From the IMG/VR virus record IMGVR_UViG_3300036790_000516, positions 1-54,787 of that record: DNA of 54,787 nt, one strand, 5' to 3'. Source of the stretch: a virus. Under the pieces are notes generated by a model. That model saw only the letters and a program-made list of their open reading frames with translations. It made no database searches and had not been told where the DNA came from. This document shows positions 1-49,076 of the stretch, piece after piece. How positions within the stretch are numbered: position 1 is the first letter of the stretch; each line of letters opens with the position of its first letter. The position numbers and the translations under genes were made by a program.

Positions 1-2490
1 GTCGTCACCGCCCTCGACGGCGCTGGCGGCGAGACTCCGGCGTCGAACGAGGTCTTCGCCGCCGTCGACGCCAACTCCTCGATCACCATCTGCTGGAACG
101 TGGTCCCGAACGCCTGGGCCTATAACGTTTACCGCGGGCTGACCTCGGGCTCGGAGATGGTTCTGTCGGGCGTCGGGCTTCCCGTCCCGCAGCCAGCGCC
201 GCTGACCGCCCGCGTCTGTTTCACCGACGGCGGCGCGACCCCGTTCCCGCCCGGCGGCCTGCCCGTCGCCTCGGTCACCAACGAACCCTACGTGTTGATC
301 TCGCCGCCCGCGCTCGCCGGGTTCAATCCGACCGGCCGGGCGCTGGTGACCCTCGCCGGGGCGACCTCCGGCTCCTTCTACGTCGGCAAGTCGGTCGTCC
401 TCGAAGGCACCGGCAGCGCCTATTACAACGGGGTCGCGGCGTCGGTCGTCTCCATCGTCTCTTCGACGCAACTGGTCATTCAATCGGCGACGTGGTCGCC
501 GCCGTCGCGCCCCGGCTTCCAGGACACCGTCGGCGGCGACCTCCAGGACCCCGGCCCGGTCACCGATACCACCCAGCAGGTCGTCCTCTACAAGATGCCG
601 AACTCGCTGACGCTGCCGATCCCCTACACCGACGCGAACGTGGTAGCGCTGTTCCCGATGTGCCCGCCATCCCTCGGCGTCCCTCCATCGGGCGGCACCG
701 GCGGCCCGACCTCCCTCCCCGGCGCAACCGCCTCGGGCGGCATCGTTGGCATGACCTCGCGCATCCCTCAAATGGCCCAGTTCACCAACCGCGTCGCGAT
801 GGCCCTCGGCAACGGATTCGTGCCGCAGGTCTACTGGGACTCGACTGGATCGCCCGTTAATCCCGCCCCGACCGGCCCGATCACCGGCGTTTCGGTCGAC
901 GCCTACGGCGTGGTCACCGTTACCACCTCGACGTCCCTATCGGTCACCGACCCGACGTCCAAAGGCTTCCTGCCCGTCGGCACGAGCGTCGTCCTCGCGG
1001 GGATCGCCGATCCTCTCTACAACGGCGTTTTCGTGGTCATCTCGGTCGCCATCACGACCATGACCTCCTCGTTTACCGTGCGCAATCTGGCGGCAATCGG
1101 CGAGGCCCCGTCGAGCGGAGGCACCTGGACCGACGCCGCCACTCCCATCATCAACGTCTTCCTGCCCGCCTACCCGGCGTGGGCGGCATCGACGATCTAC
1201 GCCGTCAACGCGGTCGTGCAGCCGGACACGCCGAACGGCTTCTACTACACCTGCGTGTTCCCCGGCGAGTCGGGCCTTACCCAGCCGGCGTTCCCCACCA
1301 TCGTCGGCAATCAGATCGAGGACGGCACCGCCGTATGGCAGAACTCCGGCTCGACCGCCGGCCCCGCCCCGCCCGGCGCCGGCCACCTCTCCATCTACTC
1401 CGGCTCGCTGTGGCTCTGGAACACCTGGCCGACCGACTCGACCAACGGCATCGCCGGGCCGACCTCGATCCAGATGTCCGACGTCGACAATCCGTTTTCG
1501 TGGAACCCGGTCAACCAGGCGTTCATCGACAAGGACGACGGATCGGACGGCATGGGCCTGGCGACGTTCACGATCAGCGCCGAGGGCATCCCGCCCGAGG
1601 GCTCCCTGGTGGCGTTCAAAAACTTCGCCGGGTACCAGATCGTCGGCGTCTTTGGCTCCTCCAATTTCGCCATCCAGCGCATCCGCTCCGACATGGGCTG
1701 CTCGGCCCCCCGTACGATCCATTTCGTCCCTGGCTTCGGGATCATGCGCTACGCCCATCTCGGCATCGCCAATTTCGACGGCGTTCGCGATACGTTGATC
1801 AGCGAGGAGGTCCGCCCGTTCCTGTTCGCGTCGAACTCGCGACTGACCGCCGACATCGTCCCCATCGACCCCTACTGGCTGGCGATGTCCTGTTCCGATC
1901 TGACCGCGTCGCCCGCGATGTACGTCACCGCCATCCCGGTCGGCTCGAACTCCCTCGGCGCCCTCACGCGATTGCTGTGCTATGACATCGTCCTCAAATC
2001 CTGGGCCATCATCGACCTCCCGTTCCCGATCTCGACGATCTACCAGGCGCGCTCCTCGGAGGTCACCTCCCCGATCACCTTATTCGGCGGATTCAGCGAC
2101 GGGGTGCTGCAGCGCTGGCAGGCCAACGACCTCTTATGGCTGACCGGCGGCGGGGCGTCGGAGCTTCCCCGGGTCGTCGCCTGGTCGGTCACGCTCGCCG
2201 ACACCGAAGGGCGCACGCCCGACCAAAAGATGCAGTTCCGCCGCGTCACCGTTCGTGGTATATCTAACGGCGCCTCCTCCCTTTCCGTTACTCCCATCAT
2301 CAACGGGAGTCCCTTTACATTGCAGACCTATCCGATCCCCGCGAGCGGAGATTACGAAGTGTTCAGCGGCGTGTTCAAAAACGGCTGGCGGTTCGGCGCG
2401 CGGCTCTCGGGCGCCGGGCCAATTGAGATCGACCGGGTGGGATACCAGCTCGTCGATAAGGCGCTTGGGACGCCGGGGGTGATCTCGTGA
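1..2490 (+). CDS. Tail nozzle/stabilisation-type structural protein (3' part; gene starts at 54316)
   Basis: This is the downstream 830 codons of a 944-residue protein whose GTG start lies at 54316 on the other side of the circular join; position 1 is the first base of a codon. The N-terminal part (LLYTVRGALTACDGT) resembles the opening of podovirus nozzle or packaged-DNA-stabilisation proteins. It is followed by an Ig/FN3-like module (DTYYYVVTALDG ... AYNVYRG) spanning the join. The long beta-rich body would form a tail nozzle ring. It follows a 415-residue adaptor-like protein and precedes putative ejection proteins, the usual order in short-tailed phages. The family is inferred from position and composition; no diagnostic catalytic motif exists. 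Confidence 0.6.
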   Translation, partial: VVTALDGAGGETPASNEVFAAVDANSSITICWNVVPNAWAYNVYRGLTSGSEMVLSGVGLPVPQPAPLTARVCFTDGGATPFPPGGLPVASVTNEPYVLISPPALAGFNPTGRALVTLAGATSGSFYVGKSVVLEGTGSAYYNGVAASVVSIVSSTQLVIQSATWSPPSRPGFQDTVGGDLQDPGPVTDTTQQVVLYKMPNSLTLPIPYTDANVVALFPMCPPSLGVPPSGGTGGPTSLPGATASGGIVGMTSRIPQMAQFTNRVAMALGNGFVPQVYWDSTGSPVNPAPTGPITGVSVDAYGVVTVTTSTSLSVTDPTSKGFLPVGTSVVLAGIADPLYNGVFVVISVAITTMTSSFTVRNLAAIGEAPSSGGTWTDAATPIINVFLPAYPAWAASTIYAVNAVVQPDTPNGFYYTCVFPGESGLTQPAFPTIVGNQIEDGTAVWQNSGSTAGPAPPGAGHLSIYSGSLWLWNTWPTDSTNGIAGPTSIQMSDVDNPFSWNPVNQAFIDKDDGSDGMGLATFTISAEGIPPEGSLVAFKNFAGYQIVGVFGSSNFAIQRIRSDMGCSAPRTIHFVPGFGIMRYAHLGIANFDGVRDTLISEEVRPFLFASNSRLTADIVPIDPYWLAMSCSDLTASPAMYVTAIPVGSNSLGALTRLLCYDIVLKSWAIIDLPFPISTIYQARSSEVTSPITLFGGFSDGVLQRWQANDLLWLTGGGASELPRVVAWSVTLADTEGRTPDQKMQFRRVTVRGISNGASSLSVTPIINGSPFTLQTYPIPASGDYEVFSGVFKNGWRFGARLSGAGPIEIDRVGYQLVDKALGTPGVIS

Positions 2491-6868: not shown

Positions 6869-8044
6869 ATGCGACGTTGGCTCATCGGCATCACCCTCGC
6901 CGTCATCGCCGTCGCCGCCTCGCCGCCCGCCCGCGCGCAGGTCCAGCAGGGCAGCCTGACGACCGCGGCGGCGGATTGCGGCAACCCTCCCGCGAACTCG
7001 ACCGGCGCCATCTTCGTCGCCGTCGGCAGCAGCGGCGGCGCGACGGTCACGGCATCGGGGACGTGGAGCGGCACCCTCTCGTTCTTCGGCACCGGCGACG
7101 GCGGCGTCACCTACACCGTCCTGACCAGTCTCAACAACTCCAACGTCTCGACGACGACCGGCAACGGGACGTGGCAGTTCAATCCCACCGCCTACTCGCA
7201 TATCTGCGTGGCGTTCACGACCGCGTCGTCGGGGACCGCTGTCGTCACGATCCGCCTGAGCACCAACTCAGCGGGTCATGGCGGCGGCGGGGGCGGCGGT
7301 GGAGGTGGCATCGGCGGCACCGTCTCCAGCCCGTTCCTGCCCTACGCGAGCGGCGCGGATGCGCTGAGCGATAGCGAGTTCAGCTATGACACCGCAAACG
7401 CGATGGCGTTTTGTTTCGCGGAGTACGACTCGAATGACCCGCCGTGCATCTGGGCGGAGGATATGGCTGTTGATTCCAGCGACAGTTCCATCGGGCTGTC
7501 TACAAATGGCGTTTCCGTTAACGACATCAACGATGGCGTCGAATCATGGTACGGCGGTGGAGTAGCCAGCGTTGGAAATGGGAGCATCACCCTATCGTAT
7601 GTTGGGGCCATCACGGCTGGCGTAAATGGCGGCTTCGGCGGCTCCCTCACCCTCAACGATGCCACCAGCGGCAGTCCGACCCTTACAGCGAACGCCGACT
7701 TCTTTGCGCTCACTCCAGATGATTCCGGCTCCTCCGGACTCGTCATGAACTCATCGACAGCATCGAGCATCGATATTATCGTCGAACCGGGAGGGGACTC
7801 CATCGCCCTGTCCAACTCGACGACCGACCCGGACGACAACATTGGGTTGCAGGCAGTCGCCGGAAGCGGGGCGACGCTGAATGTTACGGATTCGATGGGC
7901 GGATCGATCGCAATACAAAGCGCAGGAGGCATCGGAACCGTCGTCGCGCCGCAGCTGGCCGCCGCCTCTGGGCAAATCTTCGTATGCGTGGACACGACCG
8001 GCATGCTCGTGTCGTCGGCAACGGCTTGCGTTGGAACGAAATAA
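6869..8044 (+). CDS. Sec-exported beta-rich, Gly-rich protein (fibre-like)
   Basis: 391 residues. The first 24 residues are a textbook signal peptide: basic RR, hydrophobic LIGITLAVIAVAA, then a PARAQ cleavage box. The mature region is beta-rich, Ser/Thr/Gly-rich, with a Gly9 linker near residue 140 (GGGGGGGGG) and repeated short strands (SIALSNSTTDPDDNIGL..), as in fibre or adhesin stalks. It begins 2 nt after the previous stop and starts a run of exported proteins. It could be a secreted fibre, a periplasmic factor or a virion fibre with an unusual N-terminus. No homologous family recognised. Confidence 0.6.
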   Translation: MRRWLIGITLAVIAVAASPPARAQVQQGSLTTAAADCGNPPANSTGAIFVAVGSSGGATVTASGTWSGTLSFFGTGDGGVTYTVLTSLNNSNVSTTTGNGTWQFNPTAYSHICVAFTTASSGTAVVTIRLSTNSAGHGGGGGGGGGGIGGTVSSPFLPYASGADALSDSEFSYDTANAMAFCFAEYDSNDPPCIWAEDMAVDSSDSSIGLSTNGVSVNDINDGVESWYGGGVASVGNGSITLSYVGAITAGVNGGFGGSLTLNDATSGSPTLTANADFFALTPDDSGSSGLVMNSSTASSIDIIVEPGGDSIALSNSTTDPDDNIGLQAVAGSGATLNVTDSMGGSIAIQSAGGIGTVVAPQLAAASGQIFVCVDTTGMLVSSATACVGTK

Positions 8045-8057
8045 AAAGGAGACCTCG

Positions 8058-8462
8058 ATGAAACTTCGCATCTGGCTGCCCACGCTAATCCTCCCGCTGG
8101 CGCTCGCTGGACTTACGGCCGCGCAATCGCCGGCGCCAACGACCAAGCCGCCGATCGCTCCGCGTCCGCAAGCGGCTCCATTATCGGCCCCGACGCCAAA
8201 GCCGACGCCCGCGCCCGCCGTCGCCGCCGCCGTCCCCGTCCCGCCCGCGACGCTGGCGACGCTGACCCCTTTGCTAACCGCCCGCGCGAACTACCGCTCG
8301 CAGGTGCTGACCCTTCTCCAGAAGAACCGCGCCAACGAGATCGCCATCGGCAAGATCGAGACCAAAGCGCTGGCCGCCGCCGGCCTTGACTACCATAGCT
8401 CGATGCTGTCGGCGGACGGCAAGACGTTCGTCCCGCGGCAAGGACTGCCGCCGCGGCAATAG
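8058..8462 (+). CDS. Sec-exported Pro-rich small protein
   Basis: 134 residues, preceded by AAAAAGGAGACCTCG. The signal peptide MKLRIWLPTLILPLALAGL ends at TAAQS. The mature protein has a Pro/Ala-rich disordered segment (residues 25-75) and then a helical charged domain (ANYRSQVLTLLQKNRANEIA) resembling a short coiled coil. It lies between two larger exported fibre-like proteins. Possibly a periplasmic spacer or assembly factor for them. Unrecognised. Confidence 0.6.
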   Translation: MKLRIWLPTLILPLALAGLTAAQSPAPTTKPPIAPRPQAAPLSAPTPKPTPAPAVAAAVPVPPATLATLTPLLTARANYRSQVLTLLQKNRANEIAIGKIETKALAAAGLDYHSSMLSADGKTFVPRQGLPPRQ

Positions 8463-8465
8463 CCC

Positions 8466-11024
8466 ATGCGGACGCGGATCATCTTTGGGATCGTCGCTGT
8501 CTTGGCGGCACTGCTGCTGCCAGCGTCCGGTTTCTGCCAATTTACCAGCGTGCAGGCCCAGGTGAAAGACGCCAACGGTAAACTCTGGTCCAACTGCACC
8601 GTCAACGCGTCCTTCGTGCCATCGCCGTCGGCGACCACCCAGCCCCTGCTCAATGGGTCGACGTTCCAGACGACGGTCCCGGTCGTGCAATGCGACTCGA
8701 TGGCCAATCTCACCCTGACGCTGGCCGACAACAATCAGGTCCAGGACGGCCACACCGCCCCGCCCGCGTCCCAGTGGAATATCAACGTGGCCTCGGACTC
8801 GGTGTGCTTCGCGGGGCAGAAGTTCTACTTCAACGCGCGATTGACGATCACCGGCGGCTCACAGAACATCACCGCCGCGCTGACCGCCGACGCTCCGATC
8901 CTGCCGACCTGCGGCGGCGGCGGCGGCGGCGACTGTCCCGGCATGACCACCGCGAATCTCGCGCAGCTCTATAATCTCAGCGGCGCGTGCGCGGGCGAGA
9001 TCTGGCTTTACAACGCCCCCGACATCACGAACTTCATCGGCGCGTCCCCGGCCCCGTTCGGCCAGCCGGTAACGACGATGGACCCGGACTTTTACTCCAT
9101 CGACGACAACTGGACCGGGTGCGACGAGTGTTCGACGGGGACGCTGCGGTCAAACGACCTGCTGCTTCAGTACTATGGGACCGACAACGTGACGCTGGGC
9201 TCGTCGGTGGACGTGCAGGCCCTCGGGCAAATCGTAATGGCGGTCGGGTCCGGTTCCTTCGAGCAAGCGGCCTATAACACGAACTCGATCACCTTCACCG
9301 ACATTGCCGACGAGAACGCCGGTGCGCTCCTGGCTGCGAACTCCGTCGATACCATGCTGGGGACGCGGCTGCAAATGTACGCGGGGGATGGCAGCAACAA
9401 CTACGTCGAACTCCGCGGCCCCCCTACGCTCGCGGCGACCGGCGTCTACACCCTGCCCGACGCCCTCCCGGCGATGGATACCAGCTACTTTCTGACCAGC
9501 GACACCATGGGCATCATGTCGTGGGCGGTCGCAGGGGGCGGCGGCGGGGGAACCATCGGAGGCTCGATCGCCTCCGGCCAGCTCGCGTTCGGCGCCGCCA
9601 CCGCGAACGACATCGAAGGCACCGCCAACGCGACGCTGGACGCCTCCGGCGACATTGACCTCGCGGGCACCATCACCGGCGGCACGCTGGCGGGCGCGGG
9701 CACCGCCTGTCTGCACGTCAATAACGCAGGCGTGGTCAGTCCGGCCAGCGGCGACTGCGCGACCGGCGGTTCCGGCTCGGTGACAGAGGTCGATACGACG
9801 ACCCCGCTTGGCGGCGGCCCCATCACGACAACCGGGACGCTAACCTGCCCCACCTGCACGACCAACGCCGCCGCCCTCACCCTTCACGCCATCGTGCTGG
9901 GCGCGGGCGGGCAGGCAACGTCGGCGCTGGGCTCGCTTGGCACGTCTACGACGGTGCTGCACGGCGCGGCGGCCGGAGCCCCGTCCTTTAGCGCCGTCGG
10001 CCTGGCCACCGACGTAACCGGCCAACTCCCCATCGCCGCCGTCGGCAGCGCCGGACTGAGCGGGACCTCGCCGATCTCGATCGCATCGACCGGCGTGATC
10101 TCCTGCTCGACCTGTTCGGCGTCATCGGGAACGGTAACCAGCGTCGCCACGACCTCGCCGATCGCCGGCGGCACGATCACCTCGACCGGGACGCTTTCCT
10201 GCCCGACCTGCATCGTCGCCCCGGCGTCGCCATCGGCGGGCGTCGGCCATTTCGCAGGCTCGACCCAGACGATTACCTCCAGCGCCGTAACGCCGTCCGA
10301 CGCCGCCGGGAACACCTCCGGCTCGGGCAACTTCTGCCTGGTGACCTCCTGCGTGATGACCACGCCGAATCTGGGAACGCCGTCGGTGGTCACGCTTACC
10401 AACGGAACCAGCCTGTCGCTGGCGACCGGGGTCGCCGGCAACCTTGGCGTTACGCACCTGAACTCCGGCACCGGCGCAACCTCGTCGACGTTCTGGCGCG
10501 GCGACGGCTCCTGGGCCTCCCCGTCCGGCAGCGGCACGGTCAACTCCGGCACGCAGTTCGCGCTGGGCGTCTACGCCACCGGCGGGACGGCCATCTCCAG
10601 CGGGCCAACGCCGCCAGCGGCGAACGGGCAGTATTTCGTCGGCTACAACGTCACAGGCAGCGCGGCGGTTACGCCAGCGGCGATCCAGTCCGGTATGACG
10701 CCGACTTCGATCAATAGCGCCGCGACCGCCTACACCATCCTCTACAGCGACAACGAGCGAACCGTGCTGATCGACGTCGCCGCGAGCAACAGCGTCACCA
10801 TCACCCTGCCGACGCCGTCCTCCCTCGGCAACGCGACGTTCACCACGCGCATCGTGAATCACTCGGCGAACGCGGCGACCATCTCGGCGACGACGTTCGA
10901 CATTCAATCGGGCACGCACGGGGCGGGGTCGACGCTGACGCTGCCGTCGGGTCAGAGCTGCCAGTTGTACGTGGACTCGTTCAATTCGTCGACTTGGGAC
11001 GCCGATTGCGTGACGTTGCAATGA
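8466..11024 (+). CDS. Tail-fibre-like protein with Sec signal peptide (852 aa)
   Basis: A signal peptide ([20 protein letters not shown], cleavage after GFCQ or nearby) precedes a long beta-structured body. The middle carries the repeated tail-fibre phrase [21 protein letters not shown] and [21 protein letters not shown] followed by CPTC pairs (LTCPTC, ISCSTC, LSCPTC). The last 100 residues ([16 protein letters not shown] .. [16 protein letters not shown]) are a typical phage fibre-tip beta domain. CxxC pairs fit oxidising, extracytoplasmic folding. The next gene starts in an ATGA overlap. Receptor-binding fibre architecture is clear; the export signal is atypical for a virion fibre. Confidence 0.65.
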
Positions 11025-11635
11025 GAATCGCCGTCCTAGCCGCCCTCGTTATCGCCGTCGCGGCCTCGGCCGGAGCGCAGCCGCCGCCGGCCTTGGCGAC
11101 GCCGCTGGCGCTGACCGCCGTCCCCACCCCCGTCCCCACCCCGCACAGCACGATGTTGACGTGGACCGCCGGACCGCCCGTCGCTGGCGTCACCGTCGCC
11201 GGATTCAACGTCTACCGGTCGGCGACCGCAGGCGGCGAGTCCGGCACGACGCCGATCAATGGCGCGACCCCGATCCCTCCGTCGGCGACCGCCTTCACCG
11301 ACGCCACCGTCGTCGCCGGAGCAACCTCTTTCTACATCGTCGAGGCCCAATCGGCCACCGGCGCGCTTTCCCCGCCGTCGAACGAGATCCGCATCCTGAC
11401 GCCCGGCCTGACCATCACCACCGCGACCGCGACGCCCAAGGGCGCCAACACGATCTACCAGGCGTCCTGGACCGACACGCAGACGAACTCCACCTTCTAC
11501 GCGTTATTCGGCAGCGGGCGAATCGTCGCTTGGGGCGCCAATGTTTTCCATGTGTCGTGGACCGGGGCGACGCTGGCCAATCCGTACCTATCGGTGTGCG
11601 ATTCGGCGGGAAATTGCGAGACGGCCCAGCCGTGA
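11021..11635 (+). CDS. Sec-exported protein with fibronectin type III-like domain
   Basis: 204 residues, ATGA-coupled to the fibre-like gene. Signal peptide [20 protein letters not shown], a Pro-rich linker, then an FN3-like domain ([40 protein letters not shown]) and a second beta domain with a late Cys pair (CDSAGNC). FN3 modules in phages usually bind surface carbohydrate or act as spacers. Coupling to the 852-residue protein suggests both act at the same extracytoplasmic site. Confidence 0.65.
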
Positions 11636-11674
11636 AAGACGTTACAGGGGTTAACATCATCGCGGAGGGCAGTT

Positions 11675-11956
11675 TTGCGCGCATGGGTCGATACGATCAC
11701 GTTTGGCGACATCCTGATAATGGCGACGTTTATCGTTACGGCGATTCTCTCGTGGAGTAATCTCAACTGGCGGGTGACGATCATCGAAACCTGGAAGGAC
11801 GCCTACTATCACAGCGCCGAGAGGCAGGACACCAATATCAACCTGCTGCGGGAGAACGCCGCCAAGCTGACCGCGATCATCGAGGGCCAGGAGCGGCGGC
11901 TGATCCTGCTGGAAGACCGGCAACCCTATCCCGGCCAGCACCGGGCGGGCATCTGA
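11675..11956 (+). CDS. Membrane-anchored coiled-coil protein (possible lysis accessory)
   Basis: 93 residues from a TTG start with GGAGGG 7 nt upstream; ATG 11719 would give a shorter form starting inside the membrane segment. One membrane helix (ILIMATFIVTAILSW, residues 12-28) is followed by a charged helix (INLLRENAAKLTAIIEGQE). One transmembrane segment plus coiled coil, immediately upstream of two holin-like genes, resembles an i-spanin-type or anti-holin protein. This is by topology only. Confidence 0.55.
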   Translation: MRAWVDTITFGDILIMATFIVTAILSWSNLNWRVTIIETWKDAYYHSAERQDTNINLLRENAAKLTAIIEGQERRLILLEDRQPYPGQHRAGI

Positions 11957-11983
11957 GATCGAGGACGCAAAAGGAGCGATGGC

Positions 11984-12385
11984 ATGGATGTTTCCAACGT
12001 CGTTATGACCCAGTTCACGTCGAGCGCGGTCGTCGTCTACCTGATGCAGAAGGTTAAGACGGCGAAATGGTTCCCTCTGGTGCAGCAGGGACGTGCGACC
12101 GTGAATCGAATGGTCAGCATCGTCGCGGCGTTCCTGGTCGCGGTCGGCGTCTCGTGGACCTGGTCGCTCGACCAGAGCACCGGGACGCACACGCTGGTCA
12201 TCACCGGCCTGTCGGTCTACGCGCTGCTGCACGGCGCCTGGCACTGGCTCAACCAGTTCGCGCTGCAGGAGACCGTGTACCAGGCGACCGTCAACAAGGT
12301 GTCAGTGACCACCGACGCGACCGACTCGATTCCTGTTAGAGTAGCGCCCGGTGGGGCAGTCGTCGTGCCGGAGGCTAAAGCATGA
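11984..12385 (+). CDS. Holin-like membrane protein
   Basis: 133 residues with AAAAGGAGCGATGGC before the ATG. It has an N-terminal segment (FTSSAVVVYLMQKV) and two clear membrane helices (VSIVAAFLVAVGVSWTW; TLVITGLSVYALLHGAWHW), with a polar C-terminal tail. Small size, two to three membrane helices and a place next to another tiny membrane protein and muralytic candidates make a holin the best guess. The stop overlaps the next ATG (ATGA). Confidence 0.55.
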   Translation: MDVSNVVMTQFTSSAVVVYLMQKVKTAKWFPLVQQGRATVNRMVSIVAAFLVAVGVSWTWSLDQSTGTHTLVITGLSVYALLHGAWHWLNQFALQETVYQATVNKVSVTTDATDSIPVRVAPGGAVVVPEAKA

Positions 12386-12549
12386 TCTTCCAACGACCCG
12401 TACCGGGCACGCTGAACCTGATCCTCGTGGTCTTCGCCCTGGTAATGTTCGCCATCGCGGGTTTCGGCTGGCCCGCTCAGATCGAGCCGTATCGCGTAAA
12501 GTTTATCGGCGTGGGACTGTTCTTCCTGACGCTTGCAATGCTGTTCTAA
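12382..12549 (+). CDS. Two-helix membrane protein (55 aa), holin/antiholin-like
   Basis: ATGA-coupled to the holin-like gene. Two hydrophobic helices (LNLILVVFALVMFAIAGF and VKFIGVGLFFLTLAMLF) are separated by a short polar turn (WPAQIEPYR). Very small two-helix proteins beside holins are often antiholins or pinholins. It could instead be a general membrane peptide. Coding is supported by the coupling and by the following gene's ribosome site overlapping its end. Confidence 0.55.
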   Translation: MIFQRPVPGTLNLILVVFALVMFAIAGFGWPAQIEPYRVKFIGVGLFFLTLAMLF

Positions 12550-12559
12550 AGGGGACTCA

Positions 12560-13195
12560 ATGAACCGACGCACCTTTCTTAACCGTGCGGCCCGCCTAGT
12601 GGCCGCCATCGCTGTCCTTGGCGTCTCCCTGACGCTGACCGGCTGCTCGGCGCTCACCGACCTTCTCAACTGGATTCCGGTCGGCCTGCAGGCGATCTCC
12701 TCGATCCTGTCCCTGCTGTCCGGCGCGGGCGTGGTCGTCGGCCCGGCGATCTCGACGATCATCGGGCTGATCCAGGTCGGCCTGGCCGATCTGCGTCTGG
12801 CCATCGTCGAGTATCAATCGACCGTCCCGCCGCCCGCCGGAGCCCTCGCCAAGATCGACACGTTCCTCGCCGATCTGGTGTCGAACATTGGCAACGTCCT
12901 CCAGCAGCTCCCGACCGGCCCGGCGAGCATCATCACGCTGGTCGTCGGCCTGTTCGAGCTGGTGCTGTCGACGATTGAGGGCTTTTTGATGCAGATTCCG
13001 GCCGCCGCCGCTGGAGCCCTCCCTAAAACGGATGCGGTGTTCAAGCGCGGGATGACGGTCAACGGGGTCGCGGTCTCGATCGGGCCGCGCAAGAACCTGA
13101 CCCGGCGCGCCTTTATCCGCGACTACAATCGACTCGTTGACGCGGGCGGGCAGCCAGGGGCCGCGTTGCCTGAGTCGCTGGCGCAGCATCTATGA
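12560..13195 (+). CDS. Putative phage lipoprotein (211 aa)
   Basis: Start preceded by AAAGGGGACTCA. The N-terminus has a basic NRRTFLNRAAR region, a hydrophobic helix and a lipobox LTGC (Cys29-31), so lipidation by signal peptidase II is likely. The twin Arg is only partly Tat-like. The mature protein contains several long hydrophobic/amphipathic helices (IPVGLQAISSILSLLSGAGVV; SIITLVVGLFELVLSTIEGF) and a basic C-terminus. Position near holins would fit an outer-membrane lysis or superinfection-exclusion lipoprotein. Family unknown. Confidence 0.6.
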   Translation: MNRRTFLNRAARLVAAIAVLGVSLTLTGCSALTDLLNWIPVGLQAISSILSLLSGAGVVVGPAISTIIGLIQVGLADLRLAIVEYQSTVPPPAGALAKIDTFLADLVSNIGNVLQQLPTGPASIITLVVGLFELVLSTIEGFLMQIPAAAAGALPKTDAVFKRGMTVNGVAVSIGPRKNLTRRAFIRDYNRLVDAGGQPGAALPESLAQHL

Positions 13196-13890
13196 GCCGG
13201 CGGCGCGGAGCCCGGCCCTCCCCCCGGCACACTCTCGCAGCGGCATCGCCTCATCGCATTCTAGGCGCGACGCCAACGCGGTTCATCCGGCGGCCGGCGA
13301 ACCTGTCCATGTGGCTCAACGACGTGGACGGGGATTGCGTCACCGCCGAGGAGGCGTTCGCCAAGGGGATCGCGCCCGGCGTTTTCATCGGCGACGCCAC
13401 GGTTAGAGTCTGGGCGGCGGCCAACGACGTTCTGAATGGTACCGACCTCATCACCGTTCTCAAATTGATGCAGACGACGGGATTCGCGCAGAACGGGAGT
13501 GTCTACGACGACGGTTCGCCCGTGTCCGTCGATTGGACCAACGTTTCGGTTCTCCAAAACGCCATCGTTCAAGGCCCCGTCAAGATCGGGGTCGCTGGCG
13601 ATCAACTGGAGACCGCCGTACCGGACCCTCCAACGAACGGATGGCTGGCGACCGGTTTCACGCCCGACGCCAACCTCGATCATTGCGTGTCCCTGTGCGG
13701 ATACGGGCCGATCTGGTGGCTGCTGAACGTACTGGGGACGGGAGCGAACCCCGGACCCGTCCAGGAGGCCCCCGGCTACGCGCTGTTCACCTGGAACTCC
13801 ATCGGCGTGATCGACGCGCCCTCGCTCAACGCGATTTGCGGCGAGGCGTGGTTGCGCAGCCCGACAACGCTTTGGACCTCAAAGCGGTGA
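13192..13890 (+). CDS. Papain-like cysteine peptidase-fold protein
   Basis: 232 residues, ATGA-coupled to the lipoprotein. After a basic leader it has DGDCVTAEEA (Cys49), DHCVSLCGYG (His164) and FTWNSIG (Asn202). These are the Cys, His-x-GYG and W-N-S landmarks of papain-like (C1-type) folds, in order. Phages carry a family of such proteins with a GDC motif, usually of unknown substrate. No clear signal peptide. Possible roles are virion maturation, cleavage of host surface protein, or lysis. Fold assignment is fairly good; substrate unknown. Confidence 0.55.
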   Translation: MSRRRGARPSPRHTLAAASPHRILGATPTRFIRRPANLSMWLNDVDGDCVTAEEAFAKGIAPGVFIGDATVRVWAAANDVLNGTDLITVLKLMQTTGFAQNGSVYDDGSPVSVDWTNVSVLQNAIVQGPVKIGVAGDQLETAVPDPPTNGWLATGFTPDANLDHCVSLCGYGPIWWLLNVLGTGANPGPVQEAPGYALFTWNSIGVIDAPSLNAICGEAWLRSPTTLWTSKR

Positions 13891-13932
13891 CGGCGCGACG
13901 CCCGCGTAGTAGAATCCGCGCGAGGTACGGCG

Positions 13933-14487
13933 ATGGCTTTTCGCAAGGACCACGATCAGGGATTGCATCATCTCGAAGAAAAGGTCAACCGTCTTGAGGA
14001 GCGCGTCGATTCAGACGAGCGTCTCAATCATCGCAGGTTCGCGGAACTGGACGCGCGGGTCACAGCGCTAGAGGCCGCGGCCAGCGATGTCCGGTTCATC
14101 ACAATCGTTCAAAACGTCCCCAATGGAGGCTCCACCATGGCTAAGCAGCGCAGATTCGCGGCAGTCGCAACGGTAGGCGTCAACGCAGGCTCGATCGGCA
14201 ACTTTTCGGCAATCCCGTCCCCGGCGGCTTCGGCCTTTGCGACCCCGCCGGTCTTCTCATCCGACAATCCGCTCGCGGTCGTGAGCATCGATACGACCGA
14301 TCCCACCGGCGCGACGGTCAACGTCGCCGTCGATCCCACCGCTACCGGCAGCTTCAACCTGTCGGCAACCTATGCCAATCCCGACGGGGTCGTAGCGACC
14401 GCCGGAACGCTGAACGTCCCGATTCTCGCCGGTCCGCCGCCGCCTCCGGTCGACGTGACCTCCATCACGATTCAGCAGAACTCCTAA
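13933..14487 (+). CDS. Coiled-coil plus Ig-like domain protein, with possible nested second product
   Basis: 184 residues: an N-terminal coiled coil (HHLEEKVNRLEERVDSDERL, residues 10-55), then a beta domain (residues 75-175; SIDTTDPTGATVNVAVDPTA..) ending in a Pro6-type linker. A second in-frame ATG at 14137 is preceded by GGAGG at the right distance and would make a 116-residue beta-domain-only product. The coiled coil suggests a trimer, as in fibre or adaptor proteins. It sits directly before the glycosidase gene. Confidence 0.55.
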   Translation: MAFRKDHDQGLHHLEEKVNRLEERVDSDERLNHRRFAELDARVTALEAAASDVRFITIVQNVPNGGSTMAKQRRFAAVATVGVNAGSIGNFSAIPSPAASAFATPPVFSSDNPLAVVSIDTTDPTGATVNVAVDPTATGSFNLSATYANPDGVVATAGTLNVPILAGPPPPPVDVTSITIQQNS

Positions 14488-14522
14488 CCGTTTTAACCGT
14501 CTGGGCAGGGAGGGCAAGCGGC

Positions 14523-17327
14523 ATGGTTCGACGATTGCGCTGGATGATCCTATCGCTTGCCCTTTTCCTTCCCTCGCCCGCCCACGCCCAGACCGCCACC
14601 GTGACCTGGGGCACGACGTACCAAACGATCCAAGGCTTCGGCGCCGGAAACAACTATATCGGCGCGGCCATGAATCCCTACGACAGCCTTCTCATCGGGA
14701 CGCTGGGGTACTCCTCGCTGCGAATGAGCATCCCCCTGGGGACCAGCTGCAACTCGGTTTCCTCGGGCTGCGCGACCGGCCAAGACAGCGTAACCGATGC
14801 TCAGGCGATGGTGGCCTCGGGCGGCCAGGTCTGGGCCTATAACAACCAATGCACCATCGCCAATTACACGACCTACGCCACACAGGCGTCAAACTTCATC
14901 GCCAGCCTCGCCAATTTCGAAAGCGTTTCCCTGGCCTCGGTCAGCGTACTGAACGAGCCGGACATCGGCAGCTGCGTGCAGGGCGTCGTGGCGTCGGGTT
15001 CCGACGTTGACACCATCGTCCGAAACTTCGGCAGCGCCCTGTCGTCCGCCGGGCAAAGCACCCTGATCATGATGCCGGAGTCGTCCCTCTACAGTTCGCT
15101 GACCGGCGTGGCGGGAACCTGCGCGGGAGACTCCGGCTGCTTTAACCTGGTTGGAGTCGTCGCCTACCATGGGTACGACGCGCCCTCCTCGCCTGCCGAT
15201 CCTTATGGCAATCCGCCCGTGATGTGGGAGACGGAAGCTTCTGCGGGTCCCGGCTACGGTCCGAATGCCCCTGGCTGTTCCGGCGGCCAGTGGTGTCCGA
15301 CGATTGCCGATGCCCTCATGTGGGCAGGACTTGTGGACGACGCCATGGCCGCCGGCAACAGCGCCTACCATTACTTCTGGTTTGTGGACCCCGACAACGG
15401 TTTCGACGGCTGCAACACCTGCAATTTTGCGCTGATCAATCCCACGGAAAGCACGCCCATTTCGATTCGCGCCTATGCAATCGCGCAGTGGGCCAAGTTC
15501 GTGCGGCCGGGTTGGGTGCGCATCGACGTTACCCACAATCCACTGAGCGGAGTGACCTGCACGGCCTTCAAGGACCCCGGGGGCAGCGGAAAGTTCGCCA
15601 TCGTCTGCCCGAACCAAAACGGTTCGAGCCGGGGGATCGCGTACAATTTTTCCGGATTCACAGCCGCGTCCGTGACGCCCTACATAACCGACTCGACCAG
15701 GACGGTCACCGCGCAGACGCCGATCGCCGCCGGAAGTTCGTTCTCCGCAACGCTTGCGGCGGATAGCGTGACGACATTCTTTGGCACCAGCGGCGCTCCG
15801 CCTCCGCCGACGACCACTTTCTACGCATCGACGTCCAGCGGAAGCGACTCGAACGCCGGAACCAGGACGAGCCCCTGGTATCACATCCCAGGCATGACTG
15901 GCGTCACGGGCGTTCCGGCTGCGCACACCGTCGCGGCTGGTGACAGCTACATCCTCAAGGGTGGCGATACCTGGCCTGCCGCGGCCTTCCCGATGCAGCA
16001 GGTGTTTACGGGCAGCAGCTCCAGCACGTCGCCCGTCGGTTGCACCGGGTCGGGCTGCATTTACATCGGCGTGGACCAAACGTGGTTCACCGGAGGCTCG
16101 TGGACGAGGCCAATCTTTAACGGCGGCAACACGCAAGTCGGAACCTATCCGGGCGGAATTCAGAGCGTGGTCGACCTCTATGGCGGCTACTTCGTCCTCG
16201 ACAACATCGAGTTCACCGGCTGGTGGCAGACCGTCAACACGGCGACCACCTGGTCGATCATCAGCATTCGCGCGAGCCAAACCGAGGTAAGGAACAACTA
16301 CATTCACGGCTGGGGGCACGGCGGCACGGCCACGGAGGACAATGCGAGGTTCATCAGCAGCGGCGCGAGCTGCCCGCCTGACATGACCAGCGAGATTGAC
16401 AGCAACGCGATCGACGGTGCCGATACCACGATGGACATGGGCTTTGGCATGGGCGTCGCGGAAGGCTACGTCTATAACAACTATGTCGCGGACACCGTGA
16501 CGCTGATGTTCGGAACCGCTCGCTACTGGTTCGGCAACACGCTGATCGACTCCGGCCCCGACGCGTTCGACCCCGGCTCCCATGGAAATGTGATCGAATC
16601 CGCCGGCTGCCAGATGATCGCGTTCAATAACTACAGCAACGGGGCATACCTCGGGTCGAGCTTCTTCAACACGCCGGTGGACGGCAGCGTCGACTATGAC
16701 TTCAACAACGTGCTGGTCAACCAGGACGGCGTGCAGGCGATTCAGGTGGACGGAGATGGCCTCTCGACGGGCGCTGGATCGGGAATCTACATTTTCAACA
16801 ACATCCTGCAAGAAGGCGCGGCTCAGGGTGGCAATCCGATCAGCCTTCCCACGCGCGGCGGCACGCTGCCGTTCGCCACCATCTACAACAATTTCATGAT
16901 CGCGACAAACGCCACGGTCAACCCAGGCAGCCACACAACGACCATCACGCAATCGAACCAACTGGGCGTCACCAATGCAGCAGCGGCATCGGACGGGTAC
17001 ACGTTCAGCGGAGCCTATCCATTCCTCTCCCCACGTTCATCCTCGCCGACGGTTGCGACGGGCCAGACGGCATCCACCATGAACGCCATTTGTTCCGGGA
17101 TTCCTTCCACAGCGCTGGCTCCAGCAGCAACAGCCTGCCGGAGCGATTCGGCTGTCGGCGTGGGCTACAGAACCACAAACCACACGGTGATCGTCCCGAA
17201 CCGCACGGCGCTTCTGAGGCCCGGTAGCGGCCCGTGGGACATTGGCGCATATCAATTTTCGAGTACGCCGCCGCCGCCGCCGTCGGCGCCGCCGCCCCCG
17301 ACGGGGCTCAAGGGAGTGCCGTTCTGA
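14523..17327 (+). CDS. Secreted GH30-type glycoside hydrolase fused to a parallel beta-helix
   Basis: 934 residues. A signal peptide (MILSLALFLPSPAHAQ) leads to a GH30-like catalytic domain: TYQTIQGFGAGNNY near residues 28-41, acid/base Glu145 in LNEPD, and nucleophile Glu238 in WETEAS. A C-terminal beta-sandwich follows to about residue 425. From residue 433 (FYASTSSGSDSNAGT) a right-handed beta-helix with Asn-rich turns (IRASQTEVRNNYIHG..) runs to about 910, then a Pro-rich tail. Several close Cys pairs (CAGDSGC, CSGGQWC, CNTC) suit oxidised folding. GH30 enzymes cleave xylan or beta-linked glucans/glucosides; the helix probably binds or cuts polysaccharide. Likely an exopolysaccharide depolymerase, exported rather than, or as well as, virion-borne. 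Confidence 0.7.
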   Translation: MVRRLRWMILSLALFLPSPAHAQTATVTWGTTYQTIQGFGAGNNYIGAAMNPYDSLLIGTLGYSSLRMSIPLGTSCNSVSSGCATGQDSVTDAQAMVASGGQVWAYNNQCTIANYTTYATQASNFIASLANFESVSLASVSVLNEPDIGSCVQGVVASGSDVDTIVRNFGSALSSAGQSTLIMMPESSLYSSLTGVAGTCAGDSGCFNLVGVVAYHGYDAPSSPADPYGNPPVMWETEASAGPGYGPNAPGCSGGQWCPTIADALMWAGLVDDAMAAGNSAYHYFWFVDPDNGFDGCNTCNFALINPTESTPISIRAYAIAQWAKFVRPGWVRIDVTHNPLSGVTCTAFKDPGGSGKFAIVCPNQNGSSRGIAYNFSGFTAASVTPYITDSTRTVTAQTPIAAGSSFSATLAADSVTTFFGTSGAPPPPTTTFYASTSSGSDSNAGTRTSPWYHIPGMTGVTGVPAAHTVAAGDSYILKGGDTWPAAAFPMQQVFTGSSSSTSPVGCTGSGCIYIGVDQTWFTGGSWTRPIFNGGNTQVGTYPGGIQSVVDLYGGYFVLDNIEFTGWWQTVNTATTWSIISIRASQTEVRNNYIHGWGHGGTATEDNARFISSGASCPPDMTSEIDSNAIDGADTTMDMGFGMGVAEGYVYNNYVADTVTLMFGTARYWFGNTLIDSGPDAFDPGSHGNVIESAGCQMIAFNNYSNGAYLGSSFFNTPVDGSVDYDFNNVLVNQDGVQAIQVDGDGLSTGAGSGIYIFNNILQEGAAQGGNPISLPTRGGTLPFATIYNNFMIATNATVNPGSHTTTITQSNQLGVTNAAAASDGYTFSGAYPFLSPRSSSPTVATGQTASTMNAICSGIPSTALAPAATACRSDSAVGVGYRTTNHTVIVPNRTALLRPGSGPWDIGAYQFSSTPPPPPSAPPPPTGLKGVPF

Positions 17328-17351: not shown

Positions 17352-17777
17352 ATGCCCTGGACCTACCAAATCGTCAACGGAGGGATGCGCTGGCCCGCCG
17401 GGAATCTCCTCGCGCAAGGGTATAGCGGCGCGCCAGGGGCAGTGAACAATCCCGCGATGATCGCCGTCGCCGATTACGGGCCGATCCCGGTCGGCGCGTG
17501 GGAGATCGGCGCGCCCTATGACGACGCCGAGACCGGACCGTTTACGCTGCCGCTCACGCCGACCGCTACGACCGAGACGTTCGGGCGAACCGGATTCAAG
17601 ATCCACGGGGACGACATCGCGCTGGCGGGACTGGAGAGGGCGTCAAAAGGATGCATCGTGCTCGGGAGGTTCGCGCGGGAGGCGATCTGGGCGAACGAGG
17701 ACCGGCGGCTGAACGTCGTAGCGGCGTCGGCGCTGGAGACGACGATGCCCGCGCTACCGGTCGAGGAGATAACTTAG
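17352..17777 (+). CDS. L,D-transpeptidase-like (DUF2778/YkuD-type) peptidoglycan enzyme
   Basis: 141 residues without signal peptide. The catalytic signature FKIHGDD (His85) and SKGCIVL (Cys101) is that of the YkuD/DUF2778 cysteine enzymes, including L,D-transpeptidases and toxin-like carboxypeptidases that act on peptidoglycan stem peptides. The IPVGAWEIG turn before it is typical. As the last gene of the late operon and the only muralytic signature seen in the genome, it is the best endolysin candidate, working with the holin-like proteins at 12 kb. It converges on, and overlaps by 24 bp, the leftward 17754-17903 gene. Confidence 0.6.
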   Translation: MPWTYQIVNGGMRWPAGNLLAQGYSGAPGAVNNPAMIAVADYGPIPVGAWEIGAPYDDAETGPFTLPLTPTATTETFGRTGFKIHGDDIALAGLERASKGCIVLGRFAREAIWANEDRRLNVVAASALETTMPALPVEEIT

Positions 17778-23437: not shown

Positions 23438-23511
23438 GCGGGCGTGGCCGAATGGTTAGGCTCCAGTCTTCCAAACTGGTCATCCGAGTTCGATTCTCGG
23501 CGCTCGCTCCA
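23438..23511 (+). tRNA. tRNA-Gly (anticodon TCC), encoded CCA
   Basis: Full cloverleaf: acceptor GCGGGCG with CGCTCGC (one G-U), D-stem GCC/GGC, anticodon stem CCAGT/ACTGG with loop CTTCCAA (anticodon 23470-23472), T-stem CCGAG/CTCGG with TTCGATT, discriminator T and genomic CCA. It would read GGA and GGG, glycine codons that are rare in GC-rich DNA and commoner in the AT-richer islands here. Confidence 0.92.
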
Positions 23512-28561: not shown

Positions 28562-30195
28562 CCACGCGCGGCTATCTCGGCCAGGTATTCGAGGTGCGCC
28601 CGGTGCTCGCCGCGATGGAGGACCGCGGGATGCCAATTGACGACGCCGCGCGCATCGCCCTGGACGCCGAGTTCACCATCGCGCAACGGGCGCTGGGCGA
28701 GGAGCTGGCCGCCGCCGCGCCGGCCGCCTGCCGCCGCGTCCACCCGAAGGACGGCTACAAGGGGATGCCGCCGGAGGTCAAGGAGTGGCAAAAGCAGGTT
28801 GGTCTGCTCATCACGCCCAACGAACATCGCTTCCAAGAGAAGGGCGACGGCGAGCAATACATCTACGAGGTCCGTACTTTCAACGTCGCCATCATCGATC
28901 CCGAGACGGGAGAACCGACCACAGTAGCCACAACGCGTTGGGCACGCGTCTACGATTTCAACCCGAACAGCAGTCAGCAGCTCCTCGCCTACATGGACGC
29001 GCGGGGGCATAAGCGCCCCAAGTCGCGCAAGAACGAGGACGACGACGGCAACGCCAGGGACACCACGGCCAAGAAGGACCTGCAGCGCCTGGCCTACGAC
29101 CACGACGATCCCTTTTATCTCCGCGTCATCGAGTACCGGGAACTCTCCAAAGCGCGGGGCACCTACATCGACGGGTTCAAGCCGGGCGCCGATGGCTGCG
29201 TCCACACGGCGTTCGGCTTCGCGGGCACCGGGCAGCTCACCTCGCGCAATCCCAACGTGCAGAACTTCCCCAAGCACGGGAGGCTGGCCAAGGCCCTGCG
29301 GCGAATGATCGCGCCGCCGCCGTCCGAGGACCGCGTCGTCATCGAACTCGACTACCGCGCTTTCCACGTGCTGATGACCGGCTTTGCGGCGGAATCGGCG
29401 AACTGGATGCGTCTGGCGCGCCTCGACATGCATTCCTTCGTCGCCTGGCATTTTATGAAGCTGCCCAGCGCCGACGGCCTGTTCGTCCTCGCCGACGATG
29501 ATCTATCCGAACGCCTCGAATGGTTCAAGTCCGACCCCAAACGCGCGTGGGTGCGGGACAAGCAGGCCAAGCCGTCGGACCTCGGCATCGGCTTCGGCAT
29601 GGGGCCTCGCCGCCTGTTCCAGGAGAACATGGAGTATTTCGACGGCGAGCGCGAGGCCCGGAAGTTCCACGACATGCTGCACGGGATATTCCCCGACGTG
29701 ATTTGCGTCTGCCGGGTCGGCGAGCGATGCGACGCGTGGCAGCACCGGGTTCGCTTCGAGGCGCACGAGAAACAGCGGCTGACGACGCCATTCGGCCACC
29801 ACCGCCGGTTCTACGAGGTGTTTCGCTGGGACGCCAAGCGCATGGGATGGGCCAAGGGGGATCAGGCGGAGGAGGCGGTCGCGTTCGTGCCGGCCAATCT
29901 CGCCCACGGCCATCTGCGCGAGGTGATGAAGGACATGAGGCGCGCGGGGCACGACGACCGCTACCGGATGGGCGACCAGATCCACGACGCGCTGGTGTTC
30001 TTCCCGCGGCGCGAGGAGGCCGATGCCTGCCTGGCGGATGTCAGCGCCGCGATGACCGCGCCCAGCCGGGTGATCAGCCATCCAACGCTCGCGCCGGGAG
30101 GCCTGTGGTGCGGGGTGGATGCCAAGATCGGGCCGAACTGGGCTGGGATGGAGAAGGTTAAGATTCGGGCGACGACGACAAAAGGAGTCCGCTAA
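28558..30195 (+). CDS. Family A DNA polymerase, polymerase domain only
   Basis: 545 residues. Fingers/palm motifs are present: TGQLTSRNPNVQNFP, motif A ELDYRAFH (Asp265), motif B RDKQAKPSDLGIGFG (Lys338), motif C QIHDALVFF (His476, Asp477). There is no 3'-5' exonuclease domain; that is encoded with UDG at 25664. Against E. coli Pol I, the steric-gate Glu710 is replaced by His270, Phe762 by Leu342 and Tyr766 by Phe346, and the motif B Arg is five rather than four residues before Lys. Leu at position 762 has been linked in virus surveys to temperate or slow replication. Both catalytic Asp are retained, so it should be active. Confidence 0.85.
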   Translation: MTTRGYLGQVFEVRPVLAAMEDRGMPIDDAARIALDAEFTIAQRALGEELAAAAPAACRRVHPKDGYKGMPPEVKEWQKQVGLLITPNEHRFQEKGDGEQYIYEVRTFNVAIIDPETGEPTTVATTRWARVYDFNPNSSQQLLAYMDARGHKRPKSRKNEDDDGNARDTTAKKDLQRLAYDHDDPFYLRVIEYRELSKARGTYIDGFKPGADGCVHTAFGFAGTGQLTSRNPNVQNFPKHGRLAKALRRMIAPPPSEDRVVIELDYRAFHVLMTGFAAESANWMRLARLDMHSFVAWHFMKLPSADGLFVLADDDLSERLEWFKSDPKRAWVRDKQAKPSDLGIGFGMGPRRLFQENMEYFDGEREARKFHDMLHGIFPDVICVCRVGERCDAWQHRVRFEAHEKQRLTTPFGHHRRFYEVFRWDAKRMGWAKGDQAEEAVAFVPANLAHGHLREVMKDMRRAGHDDRYRMGDQIHDALVFFPRREEADACLADVSAAMTAPSRVISHPTLAPGGLWCGVDAKIGPNWAGMEKVKIRATTTKGVR

Positions 30196-30482
30196 TGCCG
30201 CTGCGACTGCTTGCGCACGAGATCAAGGACGTACGAGACGCTGTTCTGGACTCGATTCGGGGCCGCTACGACACTTACACCTGTCCCGACTGCGACGCCA
30301 ACGTGGAAGTGGATAGCGCCTCGGCCGTGACCATCTTGGACCATTCGATCCCGCCGCTGGTCGACCGCATCCTGGCTATCGTTCACAACGCGGTGCATCG
30401 GGGGATGGCCGAGGCGCAGGCGTCGCCCCCGCCCGCAACCGCTCGATCAGCGCCAGACGATACGCCGCCGCCGCGTCCCTAG
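30195..30482 (+). CDS. Small hypothetical protein (95 aa) with CxxC
   Basis: TAATG-coupled to the polymerase. Helical N-terminus, one zinc-like knuckle (YTCPDCDANVEV), another helix, and a Pro-rich disordered tail. The last 107 bp overlap the convergent glycosyltransferase gene, so the Pro-rich tail may be an accident of that overlap. Unrecognised. Confidence 0.5.
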   Translation: MPLRLLAHEIKDVRDAVLDSIRGRYDTYTCPDCDANVEVDSASAVTILDHSIPPLVDRILAIVHNAVHRGMAEAQASPPPATARSAPDDTPPPRP

Positions 30483-31095
30483 CGTCGTCCTTGTGCGTGC
30501 GGGCGAGGTAGTGATACATCACCGGCGCGGCGGCGATGGCGACCGTTGTCAAGGGCCATCGCGCCGTCCCGATCGCGCCAACGTCCCCGACGAATCGCTC
30601 GCTGCGCACCAGCCCGGTTGCCCGCAGCCGATCCGCCCAGCGGTGGTCCTCGCCGTAGCCGCCTTCCATGGGGACCGCCAGCGCCAGCCCCCGGCGGATC
30701 GGGTTCAGATGGGAGATGTCGCGCCAGTAGAGACGGCCGTCGTCGTGCCATCCCTTCGCGGCGAGGGAGTGGATGGTCGTGCCGAAGGGGGTCCCGTCGA
30801 TGTGGCATTGGAGGCGGAATCCGATCTGGTCGACGACGCCGTCGAGGAGCGGGAGGATGCGGGCGACATAGTCCGGGGGAAGAACATCATCGTCATCGAC
30901 GAAACACAGGTAGTCCGCCCTGGACGCCTGCCGCATCTCCTCGCGATTCCCGCCGAGCGGCAACCTGTCGTCGAAGCGATGGATACGAACGTTCACGCGA
31001 GGCTCGACCTGTGGCTCCAGGATGGCGAGCAGTTGGGCAAGGAACGGCCAGCGGGATGGTTGCGTAAGGATCAGGATGTCCCAGGTGGCGTTCAT
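30376..31095 (-). CDS. Glycosyltransferase family 2-like protein (GT-A)
   Basis: 239 residues, start chosen at MNATWDILILTQPSRW (ATGA overlap with the preceding tiny ORF). ILILTQPSR is the first GT-A strand, and YLCFVDDDDVLPPDYV holds the metal-binding DxD. GGYGEDHRWADRL matches the acceptor-side ED of GT2 enzymes. It would transfer a sugar from a nucleotide-sugar. Last gene of a leftward operon with two other GT-like genes and a methyltransferase. Targets could be host glycan, virion protein or modified DNA. Confidence 0.65.
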   Translation of the reverse strand: MNATWDILILTQPSRWPFLAQLLAILEPQVEPRVNVRIHRFDDRLPLGGNREEMRQASRADYLCFVDDDDVLPPDYVARILPLLDGVVDQIGFRLQCHIDGTPFGTTIHSLAAKGWHDDGRLYWRDISHLNPIRRGLALAVPMEGGYGEDHRWADRLRATGLVRSERFVGDVGAIGTARWPLTTVAIAAAPVMYHYLARTHKDDARDAAAAYRLALIERLRAGATPAPRPSPDAPRCER

Positions 31096-31178
31096 GGCTG
31101 CTCGCACCGGGACACGAGGATGATCAGCGCCACCACCGACAGCACAGCCATCACCGCGTCGAACCAATGTCCGCTCAT
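31092..31178 (-). CDS. 28-residue membrane peptide between methyltransferase and glycosyltransferase
   Basis: Start and stop are both in ATGA overlaps, with the methyltransferase upstream and the glycosyltransferase downstream. The product is one hydrophobic helix (FDAVMAVLSVVALIILV) with a polar N-terminus and a final RCEQP. Double coupling argues it is translated. It might anchor or regulate membrane glycosylation, or act as a small toxin or inhibitor. Confidence 0.45.
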   Translation of the reverse strand: MSGHWFDAVMAVLSVVALIILVSRCEQP

Positions 31179-31780
31179 GGCCGCTCGCCCCCATCGACCA
31201 GCACGACGTTCTCCGCGCTTGTGTACGATATGGTATACCCAAGGCCCTCCGCCAGCGCCGTCACGCGGTCCAGGCGGTCGTCGTACTCCAGCACGATCAC
31301 CAGCGGCTTGACCCGGTCCCAAGGCCAGCGCTCGAAAATCTCGACCGACGTGCCCTCGGTGTCGATCGAGACGGCCAGAAGCTTGCCGCCGTCGAGGATC
31401 GCCGGGAACTCGTCCACCAGCTCGACGACGGTCGCCTGCGGGACGTAGAAAGGTTCGCTGAACTCCACCTGCCCGCGCCAGTTCATGTAGTTGCGCGCCT
31501 CGGAGGTCGACAGCAGGCCAGCCTCCCAGAACGGCGCGAGACGATGGGAGACGCCGACCGCCGCGTGGACCAGGCGGAGGCGTTGGTTGCGGCCGTGGCG
31601 CGCCAGGAGATTGTCGAAGGCGCGCGAGGGCTCGACCAGCACGCCGGGCCAGCCCTTTTCGACCAGCGCCAGGGTGTTCGAGGCGAAATGGCCGTCGTTG
31701 GCGCCGATGTCGAGGAACGAGCCGCTGCGCCCGCTAACGGCGTCCAGGATCCACTTTTCCTCCTGCGACTGGGAGTACAT
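31175..31780 (-). CDS. FkbM-family methyltransferase
   Basis: 201 residues from the ATG at 31780; an adjacent in-frame TTG is also possible. SAM motif I FLDIGANDGHFASNT, motif II GVLVEPSRAFDNL, then HAAVGV, and a C-terminal LLAVSIDTEGTSVEIFE as in FkbM proteins. These often O-methylate sugars. The order with glycosyltransferases suggests methyl-capped glycans. The start overlaps the stop of the preceding 58-residue ORF. Confidence 0.75.
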   Translation of the reverse strand: MYSQSQEEKWILDAVSGRSGSFLDIGANDGHFASNTLALVEKGWPGVLVEPSRAFDNLLARHGRNQRLRLVHAAVGVSHRLAPFWEAGLLSTSEARNYMNWRGQVEFSEPFYVPQATVVELVDEFPAILDGGKLLAVSIDTEGTSVEIFERWPWDRVKPLVIVLEYDDRLDRVTALAEGLGYTISYTSAENVVLVDGGERP

Positions 31781-49014: not shown

Positions 49015-49076
49015 TCCCCGTATCCCGGAAGCCTCACCCTTGTAACCGCCCTCCCCGGTCCCGCACTCTCGCCGTC

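Follow-up and report, generated by a model that had tools for sequence, protein, structure and literature searches.

In the textbook view, the virions of tailed phages are completed in the host cytoplasm, and podophage fibre genes usually follow the tail and internal-protein genes. Here we describe a block of fibre-like and enzyme genes with signal peptides at positions 6869-17327 of the IMG/VR virus record IMGVR_UViG_3300036790_000516 (54,787 nucleotides, analysed whole and referred to as the window). The closest described systems are the tail fibres and tailspikes of Caudoviricetes, in the podophage slot (N4-like LIT1, Littlefix, 98PfluR60PP), which the block proteins resemble in gene position, repeats, tip modules, the fold of the N-terminal domain (N-domain), and a conserved N-terminus with a variable C-terminus. 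They differ from these in having a Sec signal before the N-domain and dense paired cysteines (Cys); fibres are usually made without an export signal, whereas those of the block carry one. Tunturi_1, Tunturi_2 and Tunturi_4, phages isolated on Tunturiibacter (Acidobacteriota), likewise have signal-bearing genes annotated as “tail spike”, “tail fiber” and “virion structural”, one of them homologous to the clade of the window, but their head genes are only distantly related to it (PMC11924767). In the text of that paper, “signal” occurs in only two unrelated places and mass spectrometry is unmentioned. The mosaic adhesive trimer (MAT) fibres of Bdellovibrio are phage-fibre-like proteins of similar layout, with a signal peptide, a conserved ~130-amino-acid (aa) beta-rich domain and variable tips, but are bacterial and surface-displayed (PMC10769870). 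Porphyromonas gingivalis phages have genes whose products bear a Sec signal and Gln at position +1, following the Bacteroidetes Q-rule, yet these have no assigned function, are not described as fibres, and belong to another host phylum (PMC10367356). Agrobacterium phage Milano has virion proteins with many disulfides, although these lie in a contractile tail and signal peptides are unmentioned in the paper (PMC10811340). A literature search of partial coverage found no publication that describes Sec signals on the fibres of tailed phages. From the sequences compared here, a large group of uncultured soil phages appears to have fibre and spike proteins that fold outside the host cytoplasm, contrary to the usual view of fibre building.

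The window encodes a terminase, a portal, a capsid protein, a nozzle-like tail protein and a family A DNA polymerase, and its terminase has only ~30% identity to that of the nearest annotated phage. Signal predictions, start codons and gene calls were heuristic, and one signal predictor, which detected eight of nine classic E. coli signals used as positive controls, served throughout. By this measure, 6 of the 11 genes in the block carry a Sec or lipoprotein signal vs. 2 of ~47 elsewhere in the window (Fisher p=3e-4), and all six signals reported in the initial annotation were found at the starts it gave. The N-termini show an n-region, an h-region and an AxA-type cleavage site, the features of Sec export and signal peptidase I. 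With a slash for the predicted cut, they read MRRWLIGITLAVIAVAASPPARA/QVQ for the protein starting at 6869, MKLRIWLPTLILPLALAGLTAA/QSP at 8058 and MVRRLRWMILSLALFLPSPAHA/QTA at 14523, and the lipobox protein at 12560 reads MNRRTFLNRAARLVAAIAVLGVSLTLTG/CSA; the cut at 8466, with Cys at -1, is less canonical. The block proteins are thus predicted to be exported, probably via Sec. Pfam, PHROGs and PDB sequence searches of the block proteins gave almost nothing besides a GH30 domain.

Searches with the capsid protein yielded 22, then 80 related viral contigs. The comparison set comprised 31 genomes: the window, 29 IMG/VR records (28 found via the capsid protein, and G062 via a fibre search) and the isolate Tunturi_1. 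Large parts of the relatives' genomes were used, with genes called by self-trained codon statistics, and the IMG/VR records are possibly incomplete. The signal-peptide cluster, for which a search of related genomes had been proposed, recurs: long low-charge fibre- or spike-like proteins carry signal peptides in 30 of the 31 genomes. Their genes lie 3' of the tail and internal-protein genes. A fibre-like composition, with little charge and much S/T/N/G, marks 90 open reading frames (ORFs) of at least 300 aa, and 71 of these have a signal. The 19 without one include eight tail-nozzle homologues (seven match W_1, and one only the upstream part, W_54331) and seven in which a signal appears once the start codon is corrected or a strict hydrophobicity rule relaxed; the remainder are three signal-less ORFs in G022 and one with a garbled N-terminus in G057. 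A GH18 protein is found in G002, and the signal-bearing set also includes CBM5/12.

Two further properties suggest that the signals work. Of 81 non-redundant proteins with a signal, 74 have an even number of Cys in the mature part (p=1.6e-15, proteins below 40% identity being treated as independent), compared with 95 of 196 signal-less proteins, as expected by chance. This pattern was first noticed in 11 genomes, and in the genomes fetched later, which serve as a held-out set, it recurred in 47 of 50 proteins (p=1.9e-11). We rejected the idea that parity is a by-product of CxxC repeats, as CxxC accounts for only 112 of 1455 Cys. Secondly, Gln follows the cut (A/Q) in 73 of 87 proteins where shuffles predict 21. 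The exported proteins of Acidobacteriota themselves show A/Q in 39 of 88 (14 expected), and their Cys content is five times poorer than that of the phage set. Together with the Cys-paired N-domain behind the cut, parity and A/Q enrichment suggest functional signals and extracytoplasmic folding with paired Cys.

The N-domain is a stretch of ~120 aa found directly after the cut in most of the 31 genomes (32 proteins), and it is conserved while its C-terminal partners vary. In the alignment, every one of the 28 copies with a signal has two Cys or more; columns 28 and 69 co-occur in 14 of 14 cases (p=4e-9), columns 126 and 153 in three of three, and 106 is always accompanied by 122 or 123. By contrast, none of the three signal-less copies, which start directly at Met (G024, G045 and G047, the last two being close relatives), contains Cys. 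Outside the alignment, copies in Acidobacteriota proviruses comprise two with a signal and two Cys each, and one signal-less copy with one Cys. The signal-less copy of the siphovirus-like Acidobacteriota provirus G310 directly follows a probable tape-measure gene. Structure prediction had been called for on the 852-residue protein at 8466; its N-domain was modelled with AlphaFold (pLDDT 93.4), and the best viral fold matches in Foldseek include tail-fibre N-termini of podo- and siphophages (LIT1, Littlefix, 98PfluR60PP, Seurat). On predicted fold and sequence, the N-domain is a fibre-type domain that exists both with and without an export signal, and fold and conservation place it with virion-attachment domains, from which we infer attachment itself. 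INPHARED searches with the N-domain and nozzle of the window gave no match. In G045 (46497-49759, L245) and G047 (52435-55838, L218), the N-domain forms a stand-alone, signal-less, Cys-free protein of 210-226 aa directly 5' of a signal-bearing spike that lacks it, a possible arrangement of cytoplasmic adaptor and exported spike.

The host of the clade is probably Acidobacteriota, judging from sequence relationships. Among 50,697 phage records, one block protein of G006 matches only Tunturi_2, Tunturi_1 and Tunturi_4 (38-42% identity over at least 90%). Tunturi_1 and Tunturi_2 each have five signal-bearing proteins in one operon, at their deposited starts; some are annotated as tail spike, tail fiber, pectin lyase or virion structural protein, and two are hypothetical. 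Signal-bearing N-domain proteins also lie near lysis genes in the Acidobacteriota proviruses G302 and G318. The G302 provirus (L376-L377) resembles a podophage and lies in an Acidobacteriota chromosome of 6.4 Mb; it encodes three signal-bearing proteins in a row, with 8, 2 and 24 Cys, and one of its genes, which has homologues in the phage clade, is duplicated. G318 contig 10 (L374-L375) is a possible provirus, in which many small genes occur and a lysozyme-like gene stands beside two signal-bearing fibre-like proteins. A capsid-protein scan of GTDB genome contigs found none, and a capsid hidden Markov model run against 396 Acidobacteriota genomes gave two distant matches; the one examined (G447) has no signal-bearing block.

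The explanation we favour, with about even confidence, is that the block is a genuine set of fibres, spikes and depolymerases, exported by Sec, folded with disulfides, released at lysis, and putatively docked on virions by the N-domain. A short-tailed phage of Acidobacteriota would make these proteins as pre-proteins, each passing through Sec and being cut by signal peptidase I before Gln, and intramolecular disulfides would form as they fold in the periplasm. The envelope would then be broken by holin and endolysin, and at or after lysis the folded fibres would meet particles assembled in the cytoplasm and dock on the tail via the N-domain; some of the enzymes, the GH30 protein for instance, may remain unattached and remove polysaccharide of the host. 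The comparisons above give good support to the signals and their conservation, to the Cys pairing and to the fibre-type N-domain, and it is from these that we infer export, disulfides, timing and post-lysis docking. Because lysis releases proteins without any signal peptide, oxidation would be the simplest reason for the signals. In P22, tailspikes can be added in vitro to finished podophage particles. Somewhat more tentatively, and with confidence falling a little short of even, we propose that the whole clade assembles its virions in two compartments, as cytoplasmic particles and as disulfide-bonded periplasmic fibres and spikes after Sec export, joined only at lysis.

Several observations weigh against this explanation. 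Sec would have to export fibres as long as ~2,500 aa, and these would have to trimerise in the periplasm. Phage virions can hold disulfides in a case whose description mentions no signal peptide (Milano, PMC10811340). The viral fold matches of the N-domain are modest (best E 5e-5, TM-score ~0.5-0.6), and a fold search against solved structures in PDB found nothing below E=0.001. The window has no direct host link, so that its host is assigned indirectly. Tunturi_3 infects the host strain of Tunturi_1 (Tunturiibacter psychrotolerans X5P2) and lacks signal-bearing fibres in the 50 kb examined; because it grows there without the trait, the host does not dictate it, and we rejected a host-wide need for export. 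Lastly, Tunturi_4 and G022 have ordinary signal-less fibres or spikes besides the signal-bearing set, and the latter proteins could therefore be accessories.

This last point also favours the strongest alternative, which we consider unlikely though not negligibly so: a secreted set, in which free enzymes or binders leave the cell before or at lysis, break down the extracellular matrix or cover surfaces, and at no stage belong to the virion. GH30, GH18 and CBM5/12 are typical secreted domains, the GH30 protein of the window and the GH18 protein of G002 would work as free depolymerases, and the Bdellovibrio MAT fibres are phage-fibre-like surface proteins in which a signal peptide is followed by a ~130-aa domain (PMC10769870). 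However, the N-domain fold is of fibre type and the architecture is that of receptor-binding proteins, the window and Tunturi_1 have no other large fibre once the signal-bearing genes are set aside, and crossing the outer membrane before lysis would require a further secretion step. Given the N-domain fold, the variable C-terminal partners and the gene position, virion fibres maturing outside the cytoplasm fit at least as well. The initial annotation had suggested secretion before lysis, or decoys coating host cells; its view of probably exported, fibre- or depolymerase-like products is supported, and the cluster recurs in related genomes, while pre-lysis secretion, decoys and host-cell coating remain suggestions. 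It is improbable that the exported fibres bind, from the periplasm or the surface, the producer's own receptors and shield progeny or the lysogen, an effect comparable to that of T5 Llp. Such masking or superinfection exclusion is compatible with the signal-bearing sets of proviruses and with the block's receptor-binding-like proteins and conserved lipoprotein, but the late position beside lysis genes, the enzymes in the set, and several large proteins per genome are not what it would predict, and known exclusion proteins are small. We regard uncleaved membrane anchors tethering fibres to a membrane as very improbable, since A/Q is enriched at the cut and the N-domain begins a few residues after it, even though heuristic predictors cannot surely separate anchor from signal. 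That misassembly, misplaced start codons or hydrophobic starts arising by chance produced the pattern deserves almost no credence: gene calls and signals are heuristic and the G057 fibre ORF has a garbled N-terminus, but the comparative data already contradict this, since the signals recur in 30 of 31 genomes, are present at the starts deposited for Tunturi_1 and Tunturi_2, and go with Cys parity in the held-out genomes.

Should fibres or spikes indeed undergo export and oxidation beforehand, virions would be completed only after lysis. Disulfides could then lend receptor-binding proteins stability in soil, and the machinery of adsorption or escape may include some “auxiliary” glycoside hydrolases reported from soil viromes. 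Because Tunturi_1 is an isolate that forms plaques, this reading can be tested directly.

Table 1. Features of the block and its surroundings, in window coordinates (a slash marks the predicted cut; SP, signal peptide; TM, transmembrane segment).
Position	Strand	Feature	Details
100..2490	+	Tail nozzle/tubular-like protein (reference gene)	Upstream of block; no signal peptide
6869..8044	+	Signal-peptide fibre-like protein, 391 aa	Cut ARA/Q; 6 mature Cys
8058..8462	+	Small Pro-rich signal-peptide protein, 134 aa	Cut TAA/Q; no Cys
8466..11024	+	Signal-peptide tail-fibre protein, 852 aa	SP 1-24, N-domain ~25-150, fibre repeats, tip modules
8538..8915	+	Conserved beta-rich N-domain of 8466 protein	4 Cys, two in a perfectly covarying pair
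11021..11635	+	Signal-peptide Ig/FN3-like protein (by look), 204 aa	Cut AGA/Q; 2 Cys
11675..11956	+	One-TM and coiled-coil protein, 93 aa	Spanin/holin-like by sequence look
11984..12385	+	Multi-TM holin-like protein, 133 aa	By sequence look
12560..13195	+	Lipoprotein, 211 aa	Twin-arginine RRTFL and lipobox TLTGC
13309		Papain-like gene	Label by sequence look
14523..17327	+	Signal-peptide enzyme, 934 aa	Cut AHA/Q; 18 Cys; GH30 xylanase ~23-423, probable beta-helix ~430-910
17352..17777	+	Tlde1-domain (PF10908) peptidoglycan-active protein	Predicted from Pfam; no signal peptide

The individual genes of the block (Table 1) bear out much of their first description. The fibre reading of the 8466 protein held up, its C-terminal modules having 60-70% identity to ordinary phage fibres; the protein has 20 Cys if cleaved after C24. 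The N-terminal domain of the 6869 protein is common to signal-bearing proteins of G002 and G006, and its profile gave no matches beyond itself. For the 11021 protein, which has 28% identity to a signal-bearing protein of G009, the FN3 label came from the look of the sequence and found no confirmation in Pfam. In the 14523 protein, the proposed GH30 was confirmed by a match spanning the full catalytic domain (AcXbh30A, phmmer E=3.5e-33, with residues 23-422 aligning end to end with 4fmv), and NEPD and WETE motifs, candidates for the two catalytic Glu, were seen by eye. Its beta-helix half rests on sequence look and its own relatives at 34-39% identity, and has no Pfam match. A peptide-pattern search of IMG/VR for relatives of this protein found none.

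Holin, protease and peptidoglycan genes had been described as interleaved with the block. The gene at 17352 encodes a Tlde1-domain peptidoglycan enzyme and is a likely lysis gene; the holin-like, spanin-like and papain-like labels come from inspection of the sequence; Pfam and PHROG searches with the 11675 protein gave no match. The holin-like gene at 11984 is conserved beside the signal-bearing blocks of G002 and G008. Homologues of the 12560 lipoprotein occur in G006 and G009, and G022 has a protein with RR and lipobox; because of its twin-arginine RRTFL, the 12560 protein is possibly a substrate of twin-arginine translocation (Tat) rather than Sec. Twin-arginine phage lipoproteins near lysis genes are found at 12560-13195 of the window (RRTFL), L109:931-1491 and G022 29755-30306 (L124), with motifs including RRDFF and RRGFI, and are possibly a Tat-exported outer-membrane lysis factor.

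Elsewhere in the window, the large terminase frame (42024-44843) contains an intein-like insert at residues ~505-866, with Pfam Intein_splicing at E=2.5e-8, just under the cut-off, and Hint and LAGLIDADG traces. A TadE-like pseudopilin (PF07811, above cut-off; 35140-35490, minus strand) has its own hydrophobic N-terminus. A family 2 glycosyltransferase (30376-31095) and an FkbM methyltransferase (31175-31780), both on the minus strand, possibly serve surface or DNA modification, and a tRNA-Gly (TCC) gene lies at 23438-23511 on the plus strand.

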